NCBI RefSeq assembly: GCF_014217855.1
Contig: NZ_CP059059.1
Coordinates: forward strand, 992,001 to 1,056,000
Direction of reading: 5' to 3'
From: Synechococcus sp. HK01-R
Lineage (GTDB): Bacteria; Cyanobacteriota; Cyanobacteriia; PCC-6307; Cyanobiaceae
DNA: 64,000 nucleotides
This document shows, piece by piece, positions 6,021 through 43,364 of this stretch (positions are counted from its first letter, which is position 1; every line of letters begins with the position of its first letter). Position numbers and translations under genes: made by a program. The notes under the pieces are model-generated. The model was not told where the DNA came from and did not search any database. It saw nothing but the letters and a program-made list of their open reading frames with translations.

Positions 6021-8428
6021 GCTTTCTGGCAGGCCTCAACGACGCCCAGCGCCGGGCGGTGGATCACCATGAGGGTCCGCTCTTGGTGGTGGCGGGGGCC
6101 GGTAGCGGCAAGACCCGGGCACTCACCCACAGAATTGCTCATCTGATTGGAGAGCACGGTGCCGATCCGGCCCAGATCCTGGCGGTGACCTTCACCAACA
6201 AGGCGGCCCGGGAGATGAAGGAGCGGCTGGAGCTGCTGCTGGCCCAGCGGTTGGCGCAGAGCCAGTTCGGCCAGCCCTGGAGCACCCTGCCAGCTGTCGA
6301 GCAGCGGCAGTTGCGCAGTCGCATTTATCGGGAGGTGACCAAGGAGCTGTGGATCGGCACCTTCCATGCTCTGTTCGCGCGCATGCTGCGCTTCGACATC
6401 GACAAGTTCAAGGATGCGGAGGGCCTGACCTGGACCAAGCAGTTCTCCATCTATGACGAGAACGATGCCCAGAGCCTGGTGAAGGAGATCGTCACCCAGG
6501 AATTGCAGCTGGATCCCAAGCGGTTTGATCCCAAGAAAACGCGATGGGCGATCAGCAATGCCAAAAACCAGGGTTGGCTGCCGGATGATCTGGAGGCCAA
6601 TGCCGAGGGGCAGCGGGGCAAGCTCACCGCCGATGTCTATCGGCGCTACCGCAAAGCGCTGGCGGCGAACAATGCGCTCGATTTCGATGATCTGCTGTTG
6701 CTCCCGGTGCAGCTGCTCCAGCAGAACGAACAAGTGCGCGCCTACTGGCACCGGCGCTTCCGGCATGTGCTTGTGGATGAGTACCAAGACACCAATCGCA
6801 CCCAATACGAACTGATCAAGCTGCTGGTGACCGATGGCCTCGATCCTCAGGTTTACGACAACTGGAGCGGTCGCTCGGTGTTTGTGGTGGGCGATGCCGA
6901 CCAGAGCATCTACAGCTTCCGGGCCGCCGATTTCACGATCCTGATGGGTTTTCAGGACGACTTCGGCGACAAGGCCCCCGATGACAGCACCCGCACGATG
7001 GTGAAGCTGGAGGAGAACTACCGCTCGACGGCCACGATCTTGGAGGCGGCCAATGCCCTGATCGCTCACAACAGCGAGCGGATCGACAAGGTGCTGCGGC
7101 CCACTCGGGGCGAGGGTGAGCTGATTGCGCTCACCCGCTGCGATGACGAGATCGCGGAAGCGGAGGCGGTGGTGCATCGGCTGCGGATGATGGAAGCGGC
7201 CAATCCGGAGTTGAGCTGGCGCGACATGGCGGTGCTGTACCGCACCAATGCCCAGTCGCGGGCGATCGAGGAGTCGTTGGTGCGTTGGCGAATTCCCTAT
7301 GTCGTGGTGGGCGGCCTGCGCTTCTACGACCGGAGGGAGATCAAGGATCTGCTCGCCTATCTGCGCCTGTTGATCAATCCAGCTGACACCGTCAGCCTGT
7401 TGCGGGTGGTGAACGTGCCCAAGCGGGGGATCGGCAAGACCACGATTCAACGGCTCACCGACGCGGCCAATCAGCTGGGGATTCCCCTCTGGGATGTGGT
7501 GAGTGACCCTGAGGCGGTGCGCTCCCTTGGGGGGCGTTCCGCCAAGGGGCTGCTCCAGTTCTGCGAGCTGATCCAGGGCCTCAAGGACCGGATCCATGAC
7601 GCCGCTCCGTCGGAGCTGATCCAGACGGTGATGGAGACCAGTGGGTATGTGAGCGAGCTGATCGCCGAGGGCACCGACGAGGCGGAGGAGCGGCGACGCA
7701 ACCTGCAGGAACTGGTGAATGCGGCGCTGCAGTATCAGGAGGAGAACGACGAAGGCGATCTGGAGGGCTTTCTTGCCTCTGCCGCCCTGGCCAGTGATGC
7801 CGACAGCAAGGACACCGCCGCCGATCGGGTGACCTTGATGACCCTCCACAGCAGTAAGGGTCTGGAGTTTCCGGTGGTGTGTCTGGTGGGTCTGGAGCAG
7901 GGCCTGTTCCCCAGCTATCGCTCGTTGGATGATCCGGCGTCGCTGGAAGAGGAGCGTCGCCTTTGCTATGTGGGCATCACCCGGGCGAAGGAGCGCTTAT
8001 TTCTTTCCCATGCCAGTGAGCGTCGCCTCTGGGGTGGGATGCGTGAGCCGGCGGTGCCGAGCGTGTTTCTGTCTGAGTTGCCGGAAGCGCTGGTGCAGGG
8101 GGAGATTCCCCGTTCAGGCGGAGCGGCGTTGCGGCGAGAGCAGCGGCTCGACCGCCTCACCCGCGTGGATCGCGACGACTCCCGCAGGGTGGCGGCTGCG
8201 GGTTCCGCCGGTGCCCCTGCCAATGCGGTGCGCAGGCGCCAGGCCGGTCCGGCACCGGGCAAGAGCTGGAGTGTCGGCGACCGGGTGATGCACGCCAGCT
8301 TTGGGGAGGGAGAGATCACCCACACCTTTGGTAGCGGGGAGAAGGTGTCGATTGCGGTGAAATTTGCCGGGATGGGGCCCAAGATCCTCGATCCGCGCCT
8401 GGCGCCGATCGAGCCGGCCGGGAGCTGA
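6017..8428 (+). CDS. pcrA: UvrD/PcrA-type superfamily 1 DNA helicase
   Basis: ATP-dependent 3'-5' DNA helicase for repair and replication-conflict removal. The 803-residue protein has all SF1A motifs: motif Q in LNDAQRRAV, Walker A GAGSGKT (27-33), TFTNKAAREM, Walker B VDEYQDTNR (about 253-261), GDADQSIYSFR, YRTNAQSR, LMTLHSSKGLEFPVV and VGITRAKERL. The C-terminus is basic with a PcrA/UvrD-like tail, VGDRVMHASFGEGEI, proposed in other species to bind RNA polymerase. The ATG at 6017 overlaps the preceding stop by 4 bp; the open frame upstream (to 5768) lies inside the ligase-like gene and was not used. Confidence 0.95.
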   Translation: MSFLAGLNDAQRRAVDHHEGPLLVVAGAGSGKTRALTHRIAHLIGEHGADPAQILAVTFTNKAAREMKERLELLLAQRLAQSQFGQPWSTLPAVEQRQLRSRIYREVTKELWIGTFHALFARMLRFDIDKFKDAEGLTWTKQFSIYDENDAQSLVKEIVTQELQLDPKRFDPKKTRWAISNAKNQGWLPDDLEANAEGQRGKLTADVYRRYRKALAANNALDFDDLLLLPVQLLQQNEQVRAYWHRRFRHVLVDEYQDTNRTQYELIKLLVTDGLDPQVYDNWSGRSVFVVGDADQSIYSFRAADFTILMGFQDDFGDKAPDDSTRTMVKLEENYRSTATILEAANALIAHNSERIDKVLRPTRGEGELIALTRCDDEIAEAEAVVHRLRMMEAANPELSWRDMAVLYRTNAQSRAIEESLVRWRIPYVVVGGLRFYDRREIKDLLAYLRLLINPADTVSLLRVVNVPKRGIGKTTIQRLTDAANQLGIPLWDVVSDPEAVRSLGGRSAKGLLQFCELIQGLKDRIHDAAPSELIQTVMETSGYVSELIAEGTDEAEERRRNLQELVNAALQYQEENDEGDLEGFLASAALASDADSKDTAADRVTLMTLHSSKGLEFPVVCLVGLEQGLFPSYRSLDDPASLEEERRLCYVGITRAKERLFLSHASERRLWGGMREPAVPSVFLSELPEALVQGEIPRSGGAALRREQRLDRLTRVDRDDSRRVAAAGSAGAPANAVRRRQAGPAPGKSWSVGDRVMHASFGEGEITHTFGSGEKVSIAVKFAGMGPKILDPRLAPIEPAGS

Positions 8429-35954: not shown

Positions 35955-37454
35955 GTGCTTTCCGCTGTGACCGTTGCCCCTGCCGTTGACCGTATCAACC
36001 GCGCGGACTGGGCCAGCGCGTTTCGCAACGTGGAGCAGGAACTGACGGACGTGGCGCTGACCCCCGTGCGCGGCAGCGTGCCCTCCGCATTGCTCGGCAC
36101 CCTCTACCGCAACGGCCCAGGCCGTCTCGAGCGGGGTGGCCAGAGGGTGCATCACCCCTTCGATGGGGACGGGATGATCACGGCCTTGCGCTTCAGCGGC
36201 GACGGCGTGAAGCTCAGCAACCGATTCGTGCGCACCGCCGGCTGGCTGGCGGAGGAGGCGGCCGGGAAGGTGCTGTATCGCGGGGTGTTCGGCAGTCAGA
36301 AGCCTGGAGGGGTTGCCGCCAATGCCTTGGATCTGCGTCTCAAGAACATTGCCAATACCGGCGTGGTGCAACTGGGCGATGACTTGCTCGCTCTCTGGGA
36401 AGCAGCGGAGCCCCATGCCCTCGATCCCGTCACCCTGGAGACCCGCGGCATCAGCTTGTTGGGAGGGGTGCTCAAGAAAGCCGAGGCCTTTAGTGCCCAT
36501 CCCCGCTTCGATCCTGGCCATCACGATCGGCCCCGCATGGTCAATTTCGGAGTGAAAACCGGACCTCGCAGCACGATCCGGCTGATGGAGTTCGCGACGG
36601 AATCGGACGCCGCTGCTGGCATCAAGGCTGGGGATCTGCTCAGCGAACGCCGCGACAGCTTCAACGGGTTCGCTTTTCTGCACGACTTCGCGATCACACC
36701 CAACTGGGCGGTGTTCCTGCAGAACGCTGTGGAGTTCAACCCCCTGCCCTTCGTGCTTGGCAAGAGAGGTGCGGCCCAGTGTCTGCAATCCAAGCCAGAC
36801 GGTCAGGCGAAGTTCTGGCTGATTCCCCGTGATTGCGGTGCCTTTGCAGGCGAGAAGCCCCGGATCATCGACGCCCCAGACGGCTTTGTCTTCCACCACC
36901 TCAACGCCTGGGAGCAGGACGGGGATGTGGTGGTGGAGAGCATCTACTACGCCGACTTCCCCTCGATCGGTCCCGATGTGGATTTCACGGCCGTTGATTT
37001 CGATCTGATTCCTGAAGGGTTGCTGGAGCAGTGCCGCATCAATCTGAAGACCGGTCGGGTGGAGACCCGTCGGCTCAGTGAGCGTTGTTGCGAATTTGCG
37101 ATGGTGAATCCCAACAAGGAGGGTCTCCCCTGCCGTTTCGCTTGGATGGCGGCGGCGGCTCGCGAGCAGGGCAACGACCCGCTTCAAGTGATCAAGAAGT
37201 TGGATCTGAGCACGGGTGAGCGTTTGATTTGGAGTGCTGCTCCCCACGGGTTTGTCAGTGAGCCCTTGATGGTGCCCCGTCCCGGTGCGGAGTCAGAGGA
37301 TGATGGCTGGGTGCTTGAGCTGCTCTGGAACGGTGCCCGCGAAGCCTCTGATCTGGTGATCCTTGATGCTTCAGATCTCAGCGAGTTGGCAGTCTTTGAG
37401 CTTCCCTTGGCGATTCCCCATGGCCTGCATGGCAGCTGGGTCACCGCAGCCTGA
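35955..37454 (+). CDS. Carotenoid cleavage oxygenase
   Basis: A 499-residue iron-dependent dioxygenase of the CCD/RPE65 family, which cleaves carotenoids or apocarotenoids. It has LYRNGPGRLERGGQRVHHPF-type N-terminal sequence, then GDGMITALRF, SAHPRFDPG, HDFAITPNWAVFLQNA, VFHHLNAWEQDG and near the end IPHGLHGSW; the four iron-ligand His are expected in these His-rich blocks. It starts with GTG at 35955. Its stop (TGA at 37452) lies in the first unit of a 14-bp tandem repeat. Which bond or substrate it cleaves is unknown. Confidence 0.9.
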   Translation: MLSAVTVAPAVDRINRADWASAFRNVEQELTDVALTPVRGSVPSALLGTLYRNGPGRLERGGQRVHHPFDGDGMITALRFSGDGVKLSNRFVRTAGWLAEEAAGKVLYRGVFGSQKPGGVAANALDLRLKNIANTGVVQLGDDLLALWEAAEPHALDPVTLETRGISLLGGVLKKAEAFSAHPRFDPGHHDRPRMVNFGVKTGPRSTIRLMEFATESDAAAGIKAGDLLSERRDSFNGFAFLHDFAITPNWAVFLQNAVEFNPLPFVLGKRGAAQCLQSKPDGQAKFWLIPRDCGAFAGEKPRIIDAPDGFVFHHLNAWEQDGDVVVESIYYADFPSIGPDVDFTAVDFDLIPEGLLEQCRINLKTGRVETRRLSERCCEFAMVNPNKEGLPCRFAWMAAAAREQGNDPLQVIKKLDLSTGERLIWSAAPHGFVSEPLMVPRPGAESEDDGWVLELLWNGAREASDLVILDASDLSELAVFELPLAIPHGLHGSWVTAA

Positions 37455-37506: not shown

Positions 37507-37633
37507 CTGTGCAGGGTTGCCCGAACGCTCAGATGGATCTGGTGATGATTCGCGCTCTTGTGGTCATGCATCCGTCACAACTCCTGCGCCGGAACGACTT
37601 AGACAGCGGTAACCATCGTTGTCTCCCTCTCGA

Positions 37634-38377
37634 GTGTTTGTGAAACCGTCCAGACCGCATCGCGCGGCAGCCTTGTTGAATCGTTCGGGCCTGGCTCTGT
37701 TGCCGGCTTTGGTCTCGCTACCGACTGCGTTCCTGCCGCCTGCAGCGTCAGCTGCGGCAGCGAATCCGCCGGTTTGCAATGGCACCCTGCTGGAGCTGAG
37801 TGTTTCCGAACAGGGGCAGACCCGTAGCGATCGTTTCCGCTTCAGCCTGAGGATTCAGGCGGAGGGTGCCACGGCCGCTGCGGCGATGGATCAGCTCAAT
37901 CAGCGGCTCGAGCAGACGCGGATGACCCTGGATTCGTTGATCAGTGGGCGGCTGACGGTCCCCGCCCCTCGCACCTATGCCATCGGCGGGGGCAGCCAGG
38001 GTCCGCGTCGGCAGCAGGCGAGTACAACCATCAGCGGCGAGGTGGATCGAGGGCGCTACGACGCGCTGATTCAGGCAGCCGGGCGCTTGGCTGGGGTCAG
38101 CCTCCAGGGGATGACGTCCTTGGCATCCGATCAGGACGGAGCCGCCCTTGCCGATCAGCTGCTCCAAAAGGCCTTGCGCGATGGTCGTCAGCAGGCTGAG
38201 CGCACGGCCTCCATCCTCGGGCTCCGAACGGTGACGCTGCTTCGGATTGACCAGCGGCGAGGTGGTTCGATCCGTCCGCTGCCCTATGCCCTCAATACGG
38301 CGCGCCAGTTCCGTCCAGATGAGGCACCCAGGCCGGGGCAATCGCTAGCGCTGGACCTGGATTATTGCCTCTCCTGA
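37634..38377 (+). CDS. SIMPL-domain secreted protein
   Basis: About 247 residues. The N-terminus has a basic stretch, then a hydrophobic signal (LALLPALVSLPTAFLPPAAS) and an Ala-rich cleavage region, so export is expected. The rest matches the SIMPL (DUF541) family: a LELSVSEQGQTRSDRFRFSL strand, AAAAMDQLNQRLEQTRMTL, ISGEVDRGRYDALIQAAGRL and DQLLQKALRDGRQQAE. Family members are periplasmic and poorly characterised. The start is unresolved: in-frame GTG codons lie at 37634 and 37640 and a TTG at 37619. The end is 10 bp before the convergent BCCT gene. Confidence 0.75.
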   Translation: MFVKPSRPHRAAALLNRSGLALLPALVSLPTAFLPPAASAAAANPPVCNGTLLELSVSEQGQTRSDRFRFSLRIQAEGATAAAAMDQLNQRLEQTRMTLDSLISGRLTVPAPRTYAIGGGSQGPRRQQASTTISGEVDRGRYDALIQAAGRLAGVSLQGMTSLASDQDGAALADQLLQKALRDGRQQAERTASILGLRTVTLLRIDQRRGGSIRPLPYALNTARQFRPDEAPRPGQSLALDLDYCLS

Positions 38378-38387
38378 ACGGCGCCGA

Positions 38388-40028
38388 TCAGGTGTTTGTG
38401 CCCTGCTGCCTTGCCTCCTTCCAGGCGAGTCTTGGGGCGCTCCACAGTGTGGTGAGCACCAGCGGGGTCACGGGGACCGCTGTGATCACGATGAAGGCCT
38501 GAAGGGCGTCGATCGAGGTGCTGTCCCCCACGCCTGAGCCAATACGGAGCAGCACCAGGGTGAGGCTGCCGATCATCAGGGCCCAGAACAGACGCAGCAG
38601 CGGCGCAGGTTCGCTCTTGCCACTGACCACCATGGCCGCGGCATAGCTCATGGAGTCGGCGCTGGTGGCCATAAACAGCACCACCAGCAGCAAGCCCACA
38701 GGAATCAGCAGCCAGGCCATGGGTAGTTGGCCAAGGATCGCCAGCAGGGCTGCCGCGGCTCCGTTATCCCCCAGGGGACCGCTGATGCTCCCTGCCGTCG
38801 CCAGTTCCAGCGCCATGCCCGTGCCTCCGAGCAGGGTGAACCACAGATTGGTCACCAAAGGGCAGAGAATCGCCACGGCCAGCACCAATTCGCGAAGGCT
38901 GCGGCCGCGGCTGACCCCTGCTGTGAACAGGCCCATCAAGGGGGCATAGCCAAGGAACCAACCCCAGTAGAAGACGGTCCAGCCGTTCAGCCAGCTTCCC
39001 TGAGCTCCTTCATTGGAAGCCAGAGCCATCTGGGGCAGGTTGAGGAGATAGGTGCCAAAGGCGGTGAAGAAATGGCGGGTCAGCCAGAGCCCAGGTCCGA
39101 GGAGAAGCAGGCCTGCGGCCATGATCAACGTCAGCCACACGTTCAATTCGGAGAGCCATTTGATCCCTCGCTGGATTCCGCTCACCGTTGAAGTGGCGAA
39201 CACTGCTGTCAGGAGGACCACCACCAGTGACTGCAGTCCGGCGCTGTCACTGAGTCCCGGTAGTTGGCCGGCGGCATTGCTGAGTTGCAGTGAAAGAAAG
39301 CCCAGGGGACCGACGGTTCCGGCAATGGCTGCCACCACTGAGAGGCCATCGGCCAGGTCTCCGATGGGCCCATCCACCATGGAGCGAGGCACCAGCCCGA
39401 CCAGCAGTGTGCGCGGGCGCAATGGTTCCCCACGGCGCTCGCGGATCGAGAGCGTGATCGTGACCGTGGTCGCCACAAGAGCCCAGGCCAGAAAGCCCCA
39501 GTGGAGAAAGCTCACAGCCAAGGCCGGGTCGACGGCTGCTGCGGTCGAACCCTCCACACCTTTGAAATACGGGGCCGGCGTCTGGAAATGAAACAGGGGC
39601 TCGGCGGCGGACCAGAACACGCCACCTCCTGCCAGCAGGGTGCAGATCAGCACGGCGCACCAGTCGAAGAATTTCAGACTTGGCTTCGCCTCGGCGCCGC
39701 CAAGGCGCAGCCTGCCGATCGGGCTCACCGCCAGCGCGATGGCGATCACGAACAGCGCCACCACCATCCACTGCCAGAGCCCACCCAGGAGGTTGCTGGC
39801 CAGCAGCTTGCCTTCGTTGGTGAATTGTTTGGCGACTGCCAGATCAGCGGCAGCCAACAGCAGGAAAAGCAGCAGTGGACCTGCGCCGATCCAGAGGGGT
39901 GGGTGGCGCCACCAGCCCTTAGGGGCCTCGATGGGCAGGGGGGACGATCGTTGGTCAGGCAAGGCTTCAGGCGCGAACGGCATCCCGCTGGTGGTTCCAG
40001 CAGGTGAGATCGACGGCGGGTTGTTCAC
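38388..40028 (-). CDS. BCCT-family transporter (betaine/choline/carnitine type)
   Basis: A 546-residue secondary transporter with 12 predicted helices. The BCCT signature NGWTVFYWGWFLGYAPLMGLF lies in helix 8, preceded by NEGAQGSW, and conserved GGVFWSAAEPLFHF sits near helix 3. Such carriers take up glycine betaine, choline, carnitine or related quaternary amines with Na+ or H+. It is the last gene of a four-gene minus-strand cassette; its start (40028, or ATG 39983) lies inside the preceding flavoenzyme gene. A substrate made or used by those enzymes is plausible but not shown. Confidence 0.92.
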   Translation of the reverse strand: MNNPPSISPAGTTSGMPFAPEALPDQRSSPLPIEAPKGWWRHPPLWIGAGPLLLFLLLAAADLAVAKQFTNEGKLLASNLLGGLWQWMVVALFVIAIALAVSPIGRLRLGGAEAKPSLKFFDWCAVLICTLLAGGGVFWSAAEPLFHFQTPAPYFKGVEGSTAAAVDPALAVSFLHWGFLAWALVATTVTITLSIRERRGEPLRPRTLLVGLVPRSMVDGPIGDLADGLSVVAAIAGTVGPLGFLSLQLSNAAGQLPGLSDSAGLQSLVVVLLTAVFATSTVSGIQRGIKWLSELNVWLTLIMAAGLLLLGPGLWLTRHFFTAFGTYLLNLPQMALASNEGAQGSWLNGWTVFYWGWFLGYAPLMGLFTAGVSRGRSLRELVLAVAILCPLVTNLWFTLLGGTGMALELATAGSISGPLGDNGAAAALLAILGQLPMAWLLIPVGLLLVVLFMATSADSMSYAAAMVVSGKSEPAPLLRLFWALMIGSLTLVLLRIGSGVGDSTSIDALQAFIVITAVPVTPLVLTTLWSAPRLAWKEARQQGTNT

Positions 40029-41166
40029 CCCTGGCGAGACGAGCCAGGGAATCGCCGATCAGGGGGGCAAATTTGAAGGCCTGGCCGGAGCCGCCGGCAA
40101 ACAGGCTCAGTTTTGGGGTCAGGCGATCGAGCACGAAATTCACATCGCTGGCCATCGAATAGGGGCTGATCACGGTTTCAACGCGCTCCTGCACCCCCTC
40201 CAGTTCGTTGAACAGGAAGCCATCGAGGAGTTCCACCAGCCGAGCCGGAGGCTCGGTGACCATCGCATTGGGTTCGGCCACCCGTAGCTCTTTCGGGCTC
40301 CAGTCGATGCCGCACTTGATGCGGGGGCGGCCGTCGGCGGTGGTGCTCAACACTGGGAAGCCGTAGTACAACCCGCCGTCATCACCCCGTTCCCGCTGGA
40401 AGCAGAACCACTGCGGATAGCGGCTGGCCAGGGCCGGATCCACGGTGTAATGAGCCCAGAGCATCGGCCATACCTCAAGCTTTGGAGCCAACCCGAGGGG
40501 TGCCAAGAGCAGCTGACTCCAGATGCCGCAAGCCACCACCAGCTGATCGGCGCTGATGTGATCCCCGGAGCTGAGGGTGACGCCTCCGCCATCGGCATCC
40601 AGCTGGCTCACGGGGCAGTGCTCCAGCAGTTGATGGCCAGCCTTGCGGGCTGTGCGAATCCAGTGGGCCACGACCTTGTCGCTGCGCACCGCGCCAGCGG
40701 TGGGTTCGAAGAGACCGGTGAAGTCGGGTTTGGGCTTCAGGGGAAAACGCGCAGCGATTGCGCTGGCACTCAAGGCTTCATAGGGAATTCCCTGGTCATC
40801 CATCACCCGGCGGGCACCGGGAATTGAGCCCTCAATCGTTTCTTCATCCCAGCTCTCGCCGTAGAAGAGCAGCCCGTGGGTGTCGCGTAGCTGTTCCCCG
40901 GCGTGGGTTTCTTCCTCCCGCCAGAGACGGTTGGCTTCCTGGGCCAGCCGGCAGAGCACGGGATCGGAGTACATCTCCCGGAACATGCGGGTTTCCCCAA
41001 AGCTGCTGGCTTTCGCATGGGCCAGGGTTTCGGCCTCGAGCAGCACCACATCGGACACACCGCGGCGGGCGAGGGCTGCGGCGCAGCTGAGGCCGGCCAT
41101 GCCACCGCCGACGATCACCACAGACGCCCTCTGGGGTAGGGCGTTGGCCTGCATGGGTGCCGTCAC
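39967..41166 (-). CDS. FAD-dependent sarcosine oxidase-like enzyme (SolA/MSOX group)
   Basis: A 399-residue flavoprotein of the D-amino-acid-oxidase superfamily. The FAD loop is VVIVGGGMAGLSCAAALARRG (residues about 16-36, shown by GGGMAGL), with SFGETRMFREMYSD, PTAGAVRSDK, LVVACGIWSQLLL and the C-terminal LFAGGSGQAFKFAPLIG, all resembling monomeric sarcosine and N-methyl-amino-acid oxidases. Those enzymes hold FAD covalently through a Cys in a block like FKFAPLIG; here that block begins SGQAFKF with no Cys, so covalent linkage may be absent. Its ATG overlaps the dehydrogenase stop. Confidence 0.88.
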   Translation of the reverse strand: MTAPMQANALPQRASVVIVGGGMAGLSCAAALARRGVSDVVLLEAETLAHAKASSFGETRMFREMYSDPVLCRLAQEANRLWREEETHAGEQLRDTHGLLFYGESWDEETIEGSIPGARRVMDDQGIPYEALSASAIAARFPLKPKPDFTGLFEPTAGAVRSDKVVAHWIRTARKAGHQLLEHCPVSQLDADGGGVTLSSGDHISADQLVVACGIWSQLLLAPLGLAPKLEVWPMLWAHYTVDPALASRYPQWFCFQRERGDDGGLYYGFPVLSTTADGRPRIKCGIDWSPKELRVAEPNAMVTEPPARLVELLDGFLFNELEGVQERVETVISPYSMASDVNFVLDRLTPKLSLFAGGSGQAFKFAPLIGDSLARLARGEQPAVDLTCWNHQRDAVRA

Positions 41167-42239
41167 AGTCCCACTCCCGTGGGTTCTCCGAAGCTGAGTC
41201 CGATCGGCTCGGTCCTGGATTCCGCTGTCACCTCGGTGAGGGCGTCGCGCACGCTCAGTCCTTGACCACGCTGGCTCAGGTAGTCACTGGCCCGCTGGCG
41301 TACCTCCTCGCGAACGAAGCCGTAAACGTCCTCGGCGCTGGCCGATTCCCAGGCATCGGGAGCGAAGCGTTCGATCGAGTCGGCGATGACCGCCCCGGCA
41401 TTCACGAGCGGATCAGGCAGCACCCGGATCCCTCGGCGTCGCAGATCATCAGCGAGCTGGGGGACTTGAAAGGGGGCATTGGCGGCCGGCACAACAGCGC
41501 CGGTGCGCAGGGCGCTGGCCATTTCTGTGTTGATCAGACCCGACACAGAGCAGGGCAGCAGCAGATCGAGTTTCAGTTCCCACCAGGGACAACGTTCCGG
41601 TAGCGGCGTGGCGCCCGGAAAGCCAGATCGACCACGGTCGAGATCCACGGTGAACACGGTCCAGCCATGCTCCACCAGCTGTCGAGCGACTGTGCCTCCC
41701 ACAGCTCCGCAGCCATGGACTAAGGCGCGTCCGGGAGTGGCGTCGACCAGCTCGGCTTCCAGCACCGCTTCCACAGCGCCGAGGGTTCCGTGGGCCGTTG
41801 CGGCGCTGGCATCCACGGGGCTGCCCACAGCTGCCAGCACATAGGGAGTGAGCGCACTGAGACGCTCCATGTCCTCGAGGCTGGTGTTGAGATCGCAGCC
41901 CGTAATCATCGAACCGTCGAGGGATTCCAGCAAGGCAGCGGTGACGCTGATCAGCTCCTCCTTGACGGCCTCTGGTTCTGTGGCCCGGGCCACGATCTTG
42001 CCGCCGGCAAATCCGGTGCCGTACAGGTCGTGTTTGTGGGTCATCAGGCCTGCCAGTCGCTCGCCGTCGGCGATGCAGGCTTCGTCACTGGGGTAATTGA
42101 GCAGGCGCAGTCCCCCGTTTGCGGGGCGACTGGCATCGGTGTCTTCGCCGACCACGAAGACCGACAGGTGGTCGGAGACGTGTTCCGCTAGCACCGACAC
42201 CGCGGGAGCGGTCGGTGGGGTGGGATTCGGGTCAGTCAT
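41163..42239 (-). CDS. Glu/Leu/Phe/Val dehydrogenase-like amino-acid dehydrogenase
   Basis: A 358-residue NAD(P)-dependent dehydrogenase similar to leucine/valine dehydrogenases. It has a substrate half with RLLNYPSDEACIADGERLAGL, DLYGTGFAGGKIVA (the catalytic-Lys region) and MITGCDLNTSLEDM, then a nucleotide-binding half with ALVHGCGAVGGTVARQLVEHG and VNAGAVIADSIE. The start ATG at 42239 overlaps the stop of the methyltransferase gene (TGATG). It is likely to oxidise or make an amino acid; the specificity is unknown. Short N-terminal Pro/Thr-rich tail. Confidence 0.85.
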   Translation of the reverse strand: MTDPNPTPPTAPAVSVLAEHVSDHLSVFVVGEDTDASRPANGGLRLLNYPSDEACIADGERLAGLMTHKHDLYGTGFAGGKIVARATEPEAVKEELISVTAALLESLDGSMITGCDLNTSLEDMERLSALTPYVLAAVGSPVDASAATAHGTLGAVEAVLEAELVDATPGRALVHGCGAVGGTVARQLVEHGWTVFTVDLDRGRSGFPGATPLPERCPWWELKLDLLLPCSVSGLINTEMASALRTGAVVPAANAPFQVPQLADDLRRRGIRVLPDPLVNAGAVIADSIERFAPDAWESASAEDVYGFVREEVRQRASDYLSQRGQGLSVRDALTEVTAESRTEPIGLSFGEPTGVGL

Positions 42240-43264
42240 CAGGCCACTCGCTCCATCATCTGGTGATGCTCCACGTAATCCAGGCTCCATTCGCTCGGGG
42301 CGTCAGCGATGCGCTGCTCCAGGCGTTGGAAGACCGCATCGGCGGCTGCATCTCCGGCGCTGCTGGCGAAGCTGTGACGGCTCCAGCTGCGGATCGTGGC
42401 CATGAGGCCGGCGGCGAAGGCTGCGGTGTTGCCGTCGTCGTTCCAGCGTTTTCTGTAAGGGCAGCTCACGTGGACCGTGCGTTCATCGACAAGACGCAGG
42501 CCATTGCGATACGGCGCTGAGGTTGGATCCTTCAGCGGCGCCATGAACTCCTCGGGCGATTTGTAGAAATTGAGAACGGTGCCGTTGCGGTACTGCTCCT
42601 CACTGATCGCTCCCTCATCGGCCAGTTCCCGCCAGATCTGATGCAGCTGGTCGTGAACGTTGCGGGTCTTGCCGCCGTTATGGCCCAGGTAGCGGCCCTC
42701 CTCATCACGGGAGAGATTCACCGTGAGTAGGCGACCTCCCACCTGCAATTCGCGGCTGCGCAGCTCGAGGATCGCCGTCCAGTCCTGCATGGCCTTGGCG
42801 GTGAAGCGCTCCAACGCTTCTGCATCGCCGGATGCCAGCACATGGGTATGGCGCGGGAGTGGTCCCGGAGACTGGCTCAGCCAGTGCATAGCGGTGGCGG
42901 AGAAGCCGAAGCTCACCGTGCCGGGTGCCGTGGTCGGCTCATAGAAGCTGCGGGCGCTCAAGAGCACCGTCGGCTTCGGTGGCCGGGGGATCTGCAGGGC
43001 CAAGTTGGCGGCGAGTGCAACGTTGTCGTTGCTGGGCAGATCGTTCCCGATCAGGGTCAGATGGGCTCCGGGTTGTTGGGCATGGAGGTGATCAAGCACC
43101 CGGTTCCAATGCTCCACGGCCGTGCCCCCATCGGCGGCGCCGTAATCAACCAGAACGTGATGGTTCTGATCGTTCAGTTGTTCAACACAAGTCAAGGCCC
43201 AGTCCGAGGCGGCATCGATGCAGAGACGTGCGCCTTCGGTCTGCGCGCTGTAACCCGTGGTCAT
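42239..43264 (-). CDS. SABATH-like SAM-dependent carboxyl methyltransferase
   Basis: A 341-residue protein similar to plant salicylate/jasmonate carboxyl methyltransferases (Methyltransf_7). The start MTTGYSAQTEGARLCIDAAS matches the family N-terminus, the SAM site is VLVDYGAADGGTAVEHW, and FGFSATAMHWLSQSPG corresponds to the substrate loop; GGRLLTVNLSRDEEGRYLG is the following motif-like block. It is the first gene of the cassette, with an inverted repeat 50-70 bp upstream. The ATG at 43264 or one at 43276 may be the start. Its carboxylic-acid substrate is unknown. Confidence 0.85.
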   Translation of the reverse strand: MTTGYSAQTEGARLCIDAASDWALTCVEQLNDQNHHVLVDYGAADGGTAVEHWNRVLDHLHAQQPGAHLTLIGNDLPSNDNVALAANLALQIPRPPKPTVLLSARSFYEPTTAPGTVSFGFSATAMHWLSQSPGPLPRHTHVLASGDAEALERFTAKAMQDWTAILELRSRELQVGGRLLTVNLSRDEEGRYLGHNGGKTRNVHDQLHQIWRELADEGAISEEQYRNGTVLNFYKSPEEFMAPLKDPTSAPYRNGLRLVDERTVHVSCPYRKRWNDDGNTAAFAAGLMATIRSWSRHSFASSAGDAAADAVFQRLEQRIADAPSEWSLDYVEHHQMMERVA

Positions 43265-43315
43265 GGCGATGGCCATGGACCTCGTCAGCGGCAGCTTTCA
43301 CCGTACAGGGTGCAT

Positions 43316-43335
43316 CTGTCAGCACTTCGTGACAG
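43316..43335. promoter_or_regulatory. Inverted repeat upstream of the methyltransferase cassette
   Basis: CTGTCA and TGACAG are exact inverses separated by 8 bases (43316-43321 and 43330-43335). The element lies about 40-70 bp before the start of the first cassette gene, in an 88-bp spacer. The size fits a regulator operator; a terminator is less likely because there is no T-run. Confidence 0.35.
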
Positions 43336-43364
43336 GGAACACGCTGCGCTGATCCCTGCGGGCC

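Follow-up and report, generated by a model that had tools for sequence, protein, structure and literature searches.

The window considered here, i.e., a stretch of 64,000 nucleotides from the 2.48 Mb, single-contig genome of Synechococcus sp. HK01-R (NZ_CP059059.1, positions 992,001 to 1,056,000), harbours a cassette of four genes, designated genes 1 to 4, for which a role in the synthesis of the osmolyte homarine (N-methylpicolinate) is proposed. Inspection of the open reading frames (ORFs) of the window located all four genes on the minus strand, in agreement with the coordinates, strand and enzyme families of a preliminary description of the locus, the families being substantiated by Pfam. 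Gene 1 (42239..43276; 345 amino acids) belongs to the SABATH family (Pfam Methyltransf_7, PF03492; E 3e-19, 69.7 bits against a cut-off of 29.8) and is a candidate picolinate N-methyltransferase, or homarine synthase. Gene 2 (41163..42239; 358 amino acids from a TGATG start) possesses both domains of the Glu/Leu/Phe/Val (ELFV) dehydrogenases (PF00208 and PF02812) and is a putative lysine 2-dehydrogenase. Gene 3 (39967..41166; 399 amino acids; Pfam DAO) specifies a flavoenzyme of the NikD/monomeric sarcosine oxidase (MSOX) type, which is nearest to NikD and may represent a piperideine-2-carboxylate oxidase, while gene 4 (38388..40028; 546 amino acids from a GTG start) encodes a BCCT transporter (PF02028; E 4e-128, 428.5 bits against a cut-off of 27) and is a candidate homarine transporter.

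The junctions between these genes are tight. The stop codon of gene 1 and the likely start of gene 2 overlap as TGATG at 42239, as had been described, while the ATGA reported for the cassette is really GTGA (41163-41166), representing the gene 2/gene 3 overlap; the longer overlaps depend on the choice of start codon. The longest ORF of gene 2 (42290-41163; 375 amino acids, beginning with the ATG at 42290) would overlap gene 1 by 52 nucleotides, an extension that is probably not used because this stretch contains a stop in some relatives. Similarly, an overlap of up to 62 nucleotides between genes 3 and 4 hinges on the GTG start, and many relatives do not share it; the true start of gene 4 may lie downstream of this GTG, and in WH7803 the first BCCT start used is located 36 nucleotides past the gene 3 stop. 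On the minus strand, 88 nucleotides separate gene 1 from an rdgB-like gene that precedes it in the same orientation, and this gap (43277..43364, minus strand) is a possible leader or promoter region, in which a scan for sigma-70-like promoters returned no site above chance.

The genes form a unit that extends well beyond the strain under study. Thirty named Synechococcus loci were compared, among them those of WH7803 and RCC307, and all 30 preserve the gene order 1-2-3-4 without interruption up to the limits of their contigs; 29 of these loci display all four genes, while the contig of the remaining one (L027) stops within gene 3. The cassette is usually found between PGM-rdgB and a SIMPL/carotenoid oxygenase/hisB neighbourhood. 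Given that the order is kept in all thirty loci, the clustering is more than chance, and the preliminary description's suggestion of one operon is consistent with these data, as the separation of the genes in all relatives, which it had named as the outcome that would speak against a common unit, was not encountered. Furthermore, the four genes share a single phyletic pattern among 250 Cyanobiaceae genomes of at least 80% completeness. Orthologs of gene 1 were detected in 54 of these genomes (two additional distant matches being excluded) and gene 3 in the same 54, while gene 2 is present in 55, i.e., the gene 1 set plus one, and gene 4 in 53, all of which lie inside the gene 1 set. Every one of the 24 good genomes of the window's genus carries gene 1, and across 339 cyanobacterial genomes gene 1 matches are confined to three genera, all of the Cyanobiaceae.

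One genus of the family, with a G+C fraction of about 0.30, is taken here to be high-light Prochlorococcus. Gene 3 occurs in seven of its 101 genomes, always within a 1-2-3 block and with 48-59% identity. In one complete genome of this genus the BCCT gene is situated a megabase away from the block, and in another complete genome that carries the block a BCCT gene was not detected. The three enzymes therefore constitute the core of the system, with the carrier as a usual but separable partner. A genome of a further genus (g9) possesses the whole cassette without the rdgB and PGM neighbours, and the cassette genes have been gained or lost jointly in several lineages.

Gene 3 provides an indication of the chemistry that may be involved. 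A phmmer search against the PDB returned NikD as the top match (E 1.9e-37), followed by the sarcosine oxidase of T. roseum (1e-33) and the MSOX of B. sp. (1e-27), with N-methyltryptophan oxidase (MTOX) also among the matches; a profile built from the orthologs likewise placed NikD first (1.7e-42 versus 1.9e-36). The AlphaFold model of gene 3 (predicted local distance difference test score (pLDDT) 78.6) was also found by VIA-align to be closest to the fold of NikD (Z 42.3, 2.6 Å over 366 residues), followed by MSOX (Z 40.2), the T. roseum enzyme (38.4) and MTOX (37.0), while Foldseek ranked NikD, the T. roseum enzyme and MSOX near one another. The lead of NikD over the other relatives is modest. 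Glu101, Asp276, Tyr258, Arg53 and Lys358 of the NikD pocket all have counterparts that are invariant in 56-57 distinct gene 3 orthologs. Glu112 of gene 3 corresponds to Glu101 of NikD, and Asp288, as placed by an MSOX-wide alignment and a pairwise alignment, to Asp276, a position occupied by His in most MSOX relatives. Gln257, which is found where MSOX has Met245, is shared by NikD and all orthologs. The states at Glu112, Gln257 and Asp288 set the orthologs and NikD apart from three aligned sarcosine oxidase/MSOX relatives, and in a comparison with nine outside sequences nearly all deviate at these positions; one of the nine, from Paracoccus aminophilus, also carries Glu and Asp at the positions of Glu112 and Asp288. 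The carboxylate-binding Arg63 and Lys365, as well as Tyr268, are retained as in both NikD and MSOX, and Lys284 is equivalent to Lys265 of MSOX, a residue tied to O2 activation.

Gene 3 does, however, depart from NikD at two positions near the flavin. The cysteine that links the flavin (Cys315 in MSOX, Cys321 in NikD) is missing, with Ser334/Val332 found here; the orthologs carry serine, or in one case asparagine, at the position of Ser334, while cysteine is present in ten of ten outside relatives. In addition, Trp355 of NikD, which lies over the flavin, is replaced by Gln362 in all gene 3 orthologs. In view of these two replacements it is proposed that gene 3 works like NikD without being a NikD in the strict sense, and that it may perform a four-electron oxidation of piperideine-2-carboxylate to picolinate.

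The same comparison bears on one of several pathways that had been put forward for the locus, in which a quaternary amine or an N-methylated amino acid is taken up and then processed. Here, the BCCT protein would import an N-methylated amino acid or betaine, which gene 3 would demethylate in the manner of a sarcosine or N-methyltryptophan oxidase. Such a role is in keeping with the superfamily of gene 3, whose best NCBIfam match is N-methyl-L-tryptophan oxidase, albeit at 189 bits and thus below the cut-off of 257. However, His269 and His45, which are active-site residues of MSOX, are replaced by Asp288 and, in nearly all orthologs, Phe/Tyr56, and the flavin cysteine is likewise absent, while NikD remains the nearest relative. 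Moreover, a methyltransferase that employs S-adenosylmethionine (SAM) adds methyl groups rather than removing them, and the presumed Prochlorococcus enzyme block lacks an adjacent carrier, with one complete genome devoid of a detected BCCT gene. Uptake and breakdown are for these reasons considered very improbable, and the processing of glycine betaine or sarcosine in particular was set aside in view of the gene 3 pocket residues and the SAM-dependent methyltransferase.

The nearest solved proteins to gene 2 are leucine, tryptophan and phenylalanine dehydrogenases, and its identity to outside relatives amounts to about 28-33%. The catalytic residues Lys86, Lys98 and Asp133 are invariant. At position 304 (287 when numbering begins at TGATG), all 65 orthologs examined carry Asp, whereas seven outside relatives have Val, Ser or Ala; the position lies within the side-chain pocket and corresponds to Val294 of leucine dehydrogenase and Ser380 of glutamate dehydrogenase. 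Asn58 (Asn41) occupies the site of Leu40 of leucine dehydrogenase and Lys89 of glutamate dehydrogenase. Since an invariant Asp replaces the pocket Val of leucine dehydrogenase, a substrate of the lysine type is suggested, an acidic pocket residue being expected to fit a positively charged side chain. Gene 2 is also likely to use NAD rather than NADP, because Asp216 follows the glycine-rich loop.

Such an acidic residue would suit ornithine or arginine equally, and the sequence of gene 2, which is also related to the tryptophan dehydrogenase ScyB (NF035922; E 7e-26, 91 bits, far below the cut-off of 600), does not identify a substrate with certainty. Genes 2 and 3 might therefore act on ornithine, arginine or an aromatic amino acid, with gene 1 completing a different N-methylated heterocycle or a betaine. 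This appears rather unlikely, as lysine and picolinate best fit both the NikD-like pocket of gene 3 and the known occurrence of homarine in Synechococcus.

The AlphaFold model of gene 1 (pLDDT 73.7) adopts the SABATH fold, with Z values of 26-31 to all SABATH entries and 16.4 to the next family. The individual values are 30.8 for a fatty acid O-methyltransferase, 28.8 for a tea N9-methyltransferase and 27.1 for SAMT. The SABATH family includes both carboxyl O- and ring N-methyltransferases, and trigonelline, a product of the latter type, is an isomer of homarine. In coffee, SABATH enzymes known as trigonelline synthases N-methylate nicotinate to yield trigonelline (PMC8877179), and by analogy gene 1 is proposed to act as a picolinate N-methyltransferase. 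The maker of a methyl ester, which the preliminary description had also entertained, would instead use gene 1 as a carboxyl O-methyltransferase, forming an ester, for example methyl picolinate, that is volatile or serves in signalling, with the BCCT gene along for the ride. The Pfam family of gene 1 is indeed named for carboxyl methyltransferases, and its nearest solved relatives are the fatty acid O-methyltransferase of a mycobacterium together with carboxyl methyltransferases from plants. However, Gln25, which binds the acceptor carboxylate in SAMT, corresponds by sequence register to an invariant Ala16 in an N-terminal region modelled with low confidence. Gln154 of the fatty acid O-methyltransferase, the residue mutated in 5f2o, corresponds to His131; both His131 and Trp132 are invariant in gene 1. 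As an ester would furthermore need no betaine-type carrier, this alternative is regarded as quite improbable.

Gene 4, the sole BCCT gene of the genome, falls far under the NCBI equivalog cut-offs for betaine, carnitine and choline carriers; for example, the glycine betaine carrier model NF047988 yields 294.9 bits against a cut-off of 650. Its motif WTVFYWGWFLGYAPLMG is nearly invariant among 47 distinct orthologs. The aromatic-box region reads WGWFLGY, where betaine carriers possess WxWWxxW. The transporter is a candidate carrier of homarine, in a direction that is equally conjectural.

Homarine is an abundant nitrogen-containing osmolyte of the surface ocean whose biosynthetic genes were unknown according to papers published in 2021 (PMC8269262, PMC8269247), one of which guessed at a route via quinolinate, then uncharacterised (PMC8269262), while the companion paper noted that genetic information on its synthesis was lacking (PMC8269247). 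It was present in both Synechococcus cultures assayed, i.e., WH8102 and the cassette-bearing WH7803 (PMC8269262), at about 18 mM and about 0.2 mM, respectively, after a correction that lowered the amounts 25-fold (PMC10134881). A literature search by enzyme names returned no paper describing the cassette.

The NikD-like character of gene 3, the pocket Asp of gene 2, the precedent for N-methylation among SABATH enzymes, the occurrence of homarine in Synechococcus and the co-occurrence of the genes together indicate, with a probability of roughly 0.7, that the cassette represents a pathway from lysine through piperideine-2-carboxylate and picolinate to homarine, accompanied by a carrier. In the first step, gene 2 would oxidatively deaminate L-lysine at C2, and the resulting 2-oxo-6-aminohexanoate would cyclise spontaneously to piperideine-2-carboxylate. 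Gene 3 would then remove four electrons with O2, yielding picolinate and drawing the first step forward, after which gene 1 would transfer the methyl group of SAM to the pyridine nitrogen to form the zwitterionic osmolyte homarine. Finally, the BCCT protein would carry homarine across the membrane, either to recover leaked solute or to release it. The substrates, the order of the reactions, the product and the direction of transport are all inferred from the observed gene content, gene order, co-occurrence, families and residues. The synthesis of an osmolyte had been among the options of the preliminary description, which in that respect was right in kind.

Several points weigh against this assignment. 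Besides the missing flavin cysteine and the replacement of Trp355, gene 3 exhibits 33-34% identity to the T. roseum sarcosine oxidase versus 31-33% to NikD, the nearest relative of gene 1 by sequence as well as by fold is a fatty acid O-methyltransferase, and the models of genes 3 and 1 have intermediate confidence (pLDDT 79 and 74). WH7803 carries the cassette yet contains about 100-fold less homarine than WH8102; presence of the genes therefore does not predict the amount, and regulation or carriers matter too. WH8102 itself was not turned up by a pattern scan of the named collection, which gives no sign that the genes are absent, and the cassette occurs in other members of what we take to be its genus. 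According to an older view, quinolinate or tryptophan is the source of homarine (quoted in PMC8269262), and diatoms and a haptophyte, which lie outside the genomes searched here, make homarine as well.

If correct, the lysine-to-homarine assignment would explain the build-up of homarine in some marine Synechococcus and its expected lack in most Prochlorococcus, and would add three enzymes of unusual specificity. The cassette would then, as we consider somewhat probable, provide the first genetic basis of homarine synthesis in any organism, in the form of a complete operon that almost all marine Synechococcus possess and that is patchily distributed in Prochlorococcus, comprising a new ELFV lysine 2-dehydrogenase, a NikD-like oxidase without covalent flavin, a bacterial N-methyltransferase of the SABATH family and a carrier for homarine; a published account of homarine biosynthesis may exist elsewhere. 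With a gene marker of this kind, metagenomes and transcriptomes could reveal the producers of homarine as well as the amount and timing of its production, and the marker would complement the catabolic pathway reported recently.

With regard to the surroundings of the cassette, the end of gene 4 directly precedes a convergent SIMPL-domain gene (37619-38377), which is poorly conserved (37-62%) and was undetected in several loci, while a second convergent neighbour, specifying a carotenoid-cleavage-type dioxygenase (35955-37454), recurs beside the cassette in many loci. Gene 1 is broken across two reading frames in two genomes, at G209:C1:267200-268230 (locus L076, G209:C1:261000-272000) and at G006:C2:100595-101628, with genes 2-4 appearing intact in both; this might reflect a frameshift or a sequencing error, and such strains might end at picolinate. 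Two near-complete genomes, G197 and G230, of a genus that otherwise bears the cassette yielded no cassette match and represent natural negative controls. A G+C-rich Cyanobiaceae genome (L074, G051:C23:70000-84000) carries gene 2 only (6549-7580, minus strand; about 60% identity, with the pocket Asp kept), adjoining helicase-like and spermidine-synthase-like genes, with genes 1, 3 and 4 absent. Distant second SABATH-type methyltransferases (23-33% identity) occur outside the cassette at G001:C1:1325070-1326110, G008:C1:970264-970686, G104:C1:485408-486451 and G174:C9:450275-451318.

Relatives of gene 1 were not found in viral contigs, and phages returned only weak MSOX-family matches to gene 3, so that a cyanophage connection was set aside. 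Recent spread by plasmids was likewise discounted, since plasmids carry only one 30% and one 28% relative of gene 1. A 30%-identity SABATH methyltransferase is located between transposases on a plasmid of Rhizobium sp. CB3171 (L139, 5226-10339), as part of a run of genes that also specifies a B12/radical SAM protein, a membrane protein resembling drug/metabolite transporters and a DAO-family oxidoreductase. No dehydrogenase was seen there, and the locus was rejected as an instance of the same cassette; it possibly serves another small methylated metabolite.

Among known systems, one of the closest parallels is the NikC-NikD pair of Streptomyces. In nikkomycin producers lysine is converted to piperideine-2-carboxylate, which a monomeric oxidase of the NikD type turns into picolinate (PMC4021061). 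Deamination of lysine at C2 followed by a flavoenzyme of the monomeric sarcosine oxidase type that yields picolinate would thus be common to both. The proposed first step, however, employs an NAD-type dehydrogenase rather than the aminotransferase of the nikkomycin pathway, gene 3 lacks Cys321 and Trp355, and the picolinate would be N-methylated, whereas that of nikkomycin is CoA-activated. The coffee enzymes CTgS1 and CTgS2 share with gene 1 the SABATH fold family and, if the assignment holds, N-methylation of a pyridine monocarboxylate (PMC8877179); these are plant enzymes acting on nicotinate (a 3-carboxylate), whereas picolinate (a 2-carboxylate) is proposed for gene 1, the model of which exhibits about 13-21% structural identity to any solved SABATH enzyme. 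Gene 2 has the two-domain fold and catalytic Lys-Lys-Asp of leucine and tryptophan (ScyB) dehydrogenases, but its side-chain pocket differs in containing the acidic Asp304/287 as well as Asn58/41. Similarly, gene 4 belongs to the same BCCT family as carriers of the BetP, BetT and CaiT type, yet misses all equivalog cut-offs and deviates in its aromatic box. Finally, homarine catabolism in environmental bacteria has reportedly been described by Ferrer-Gonzalez et al. (2026, Nat Microbiol; cited in PMC13390433), a system that would share its metabolite with the proposed product of the cassette, with degradation there and synthesis here.

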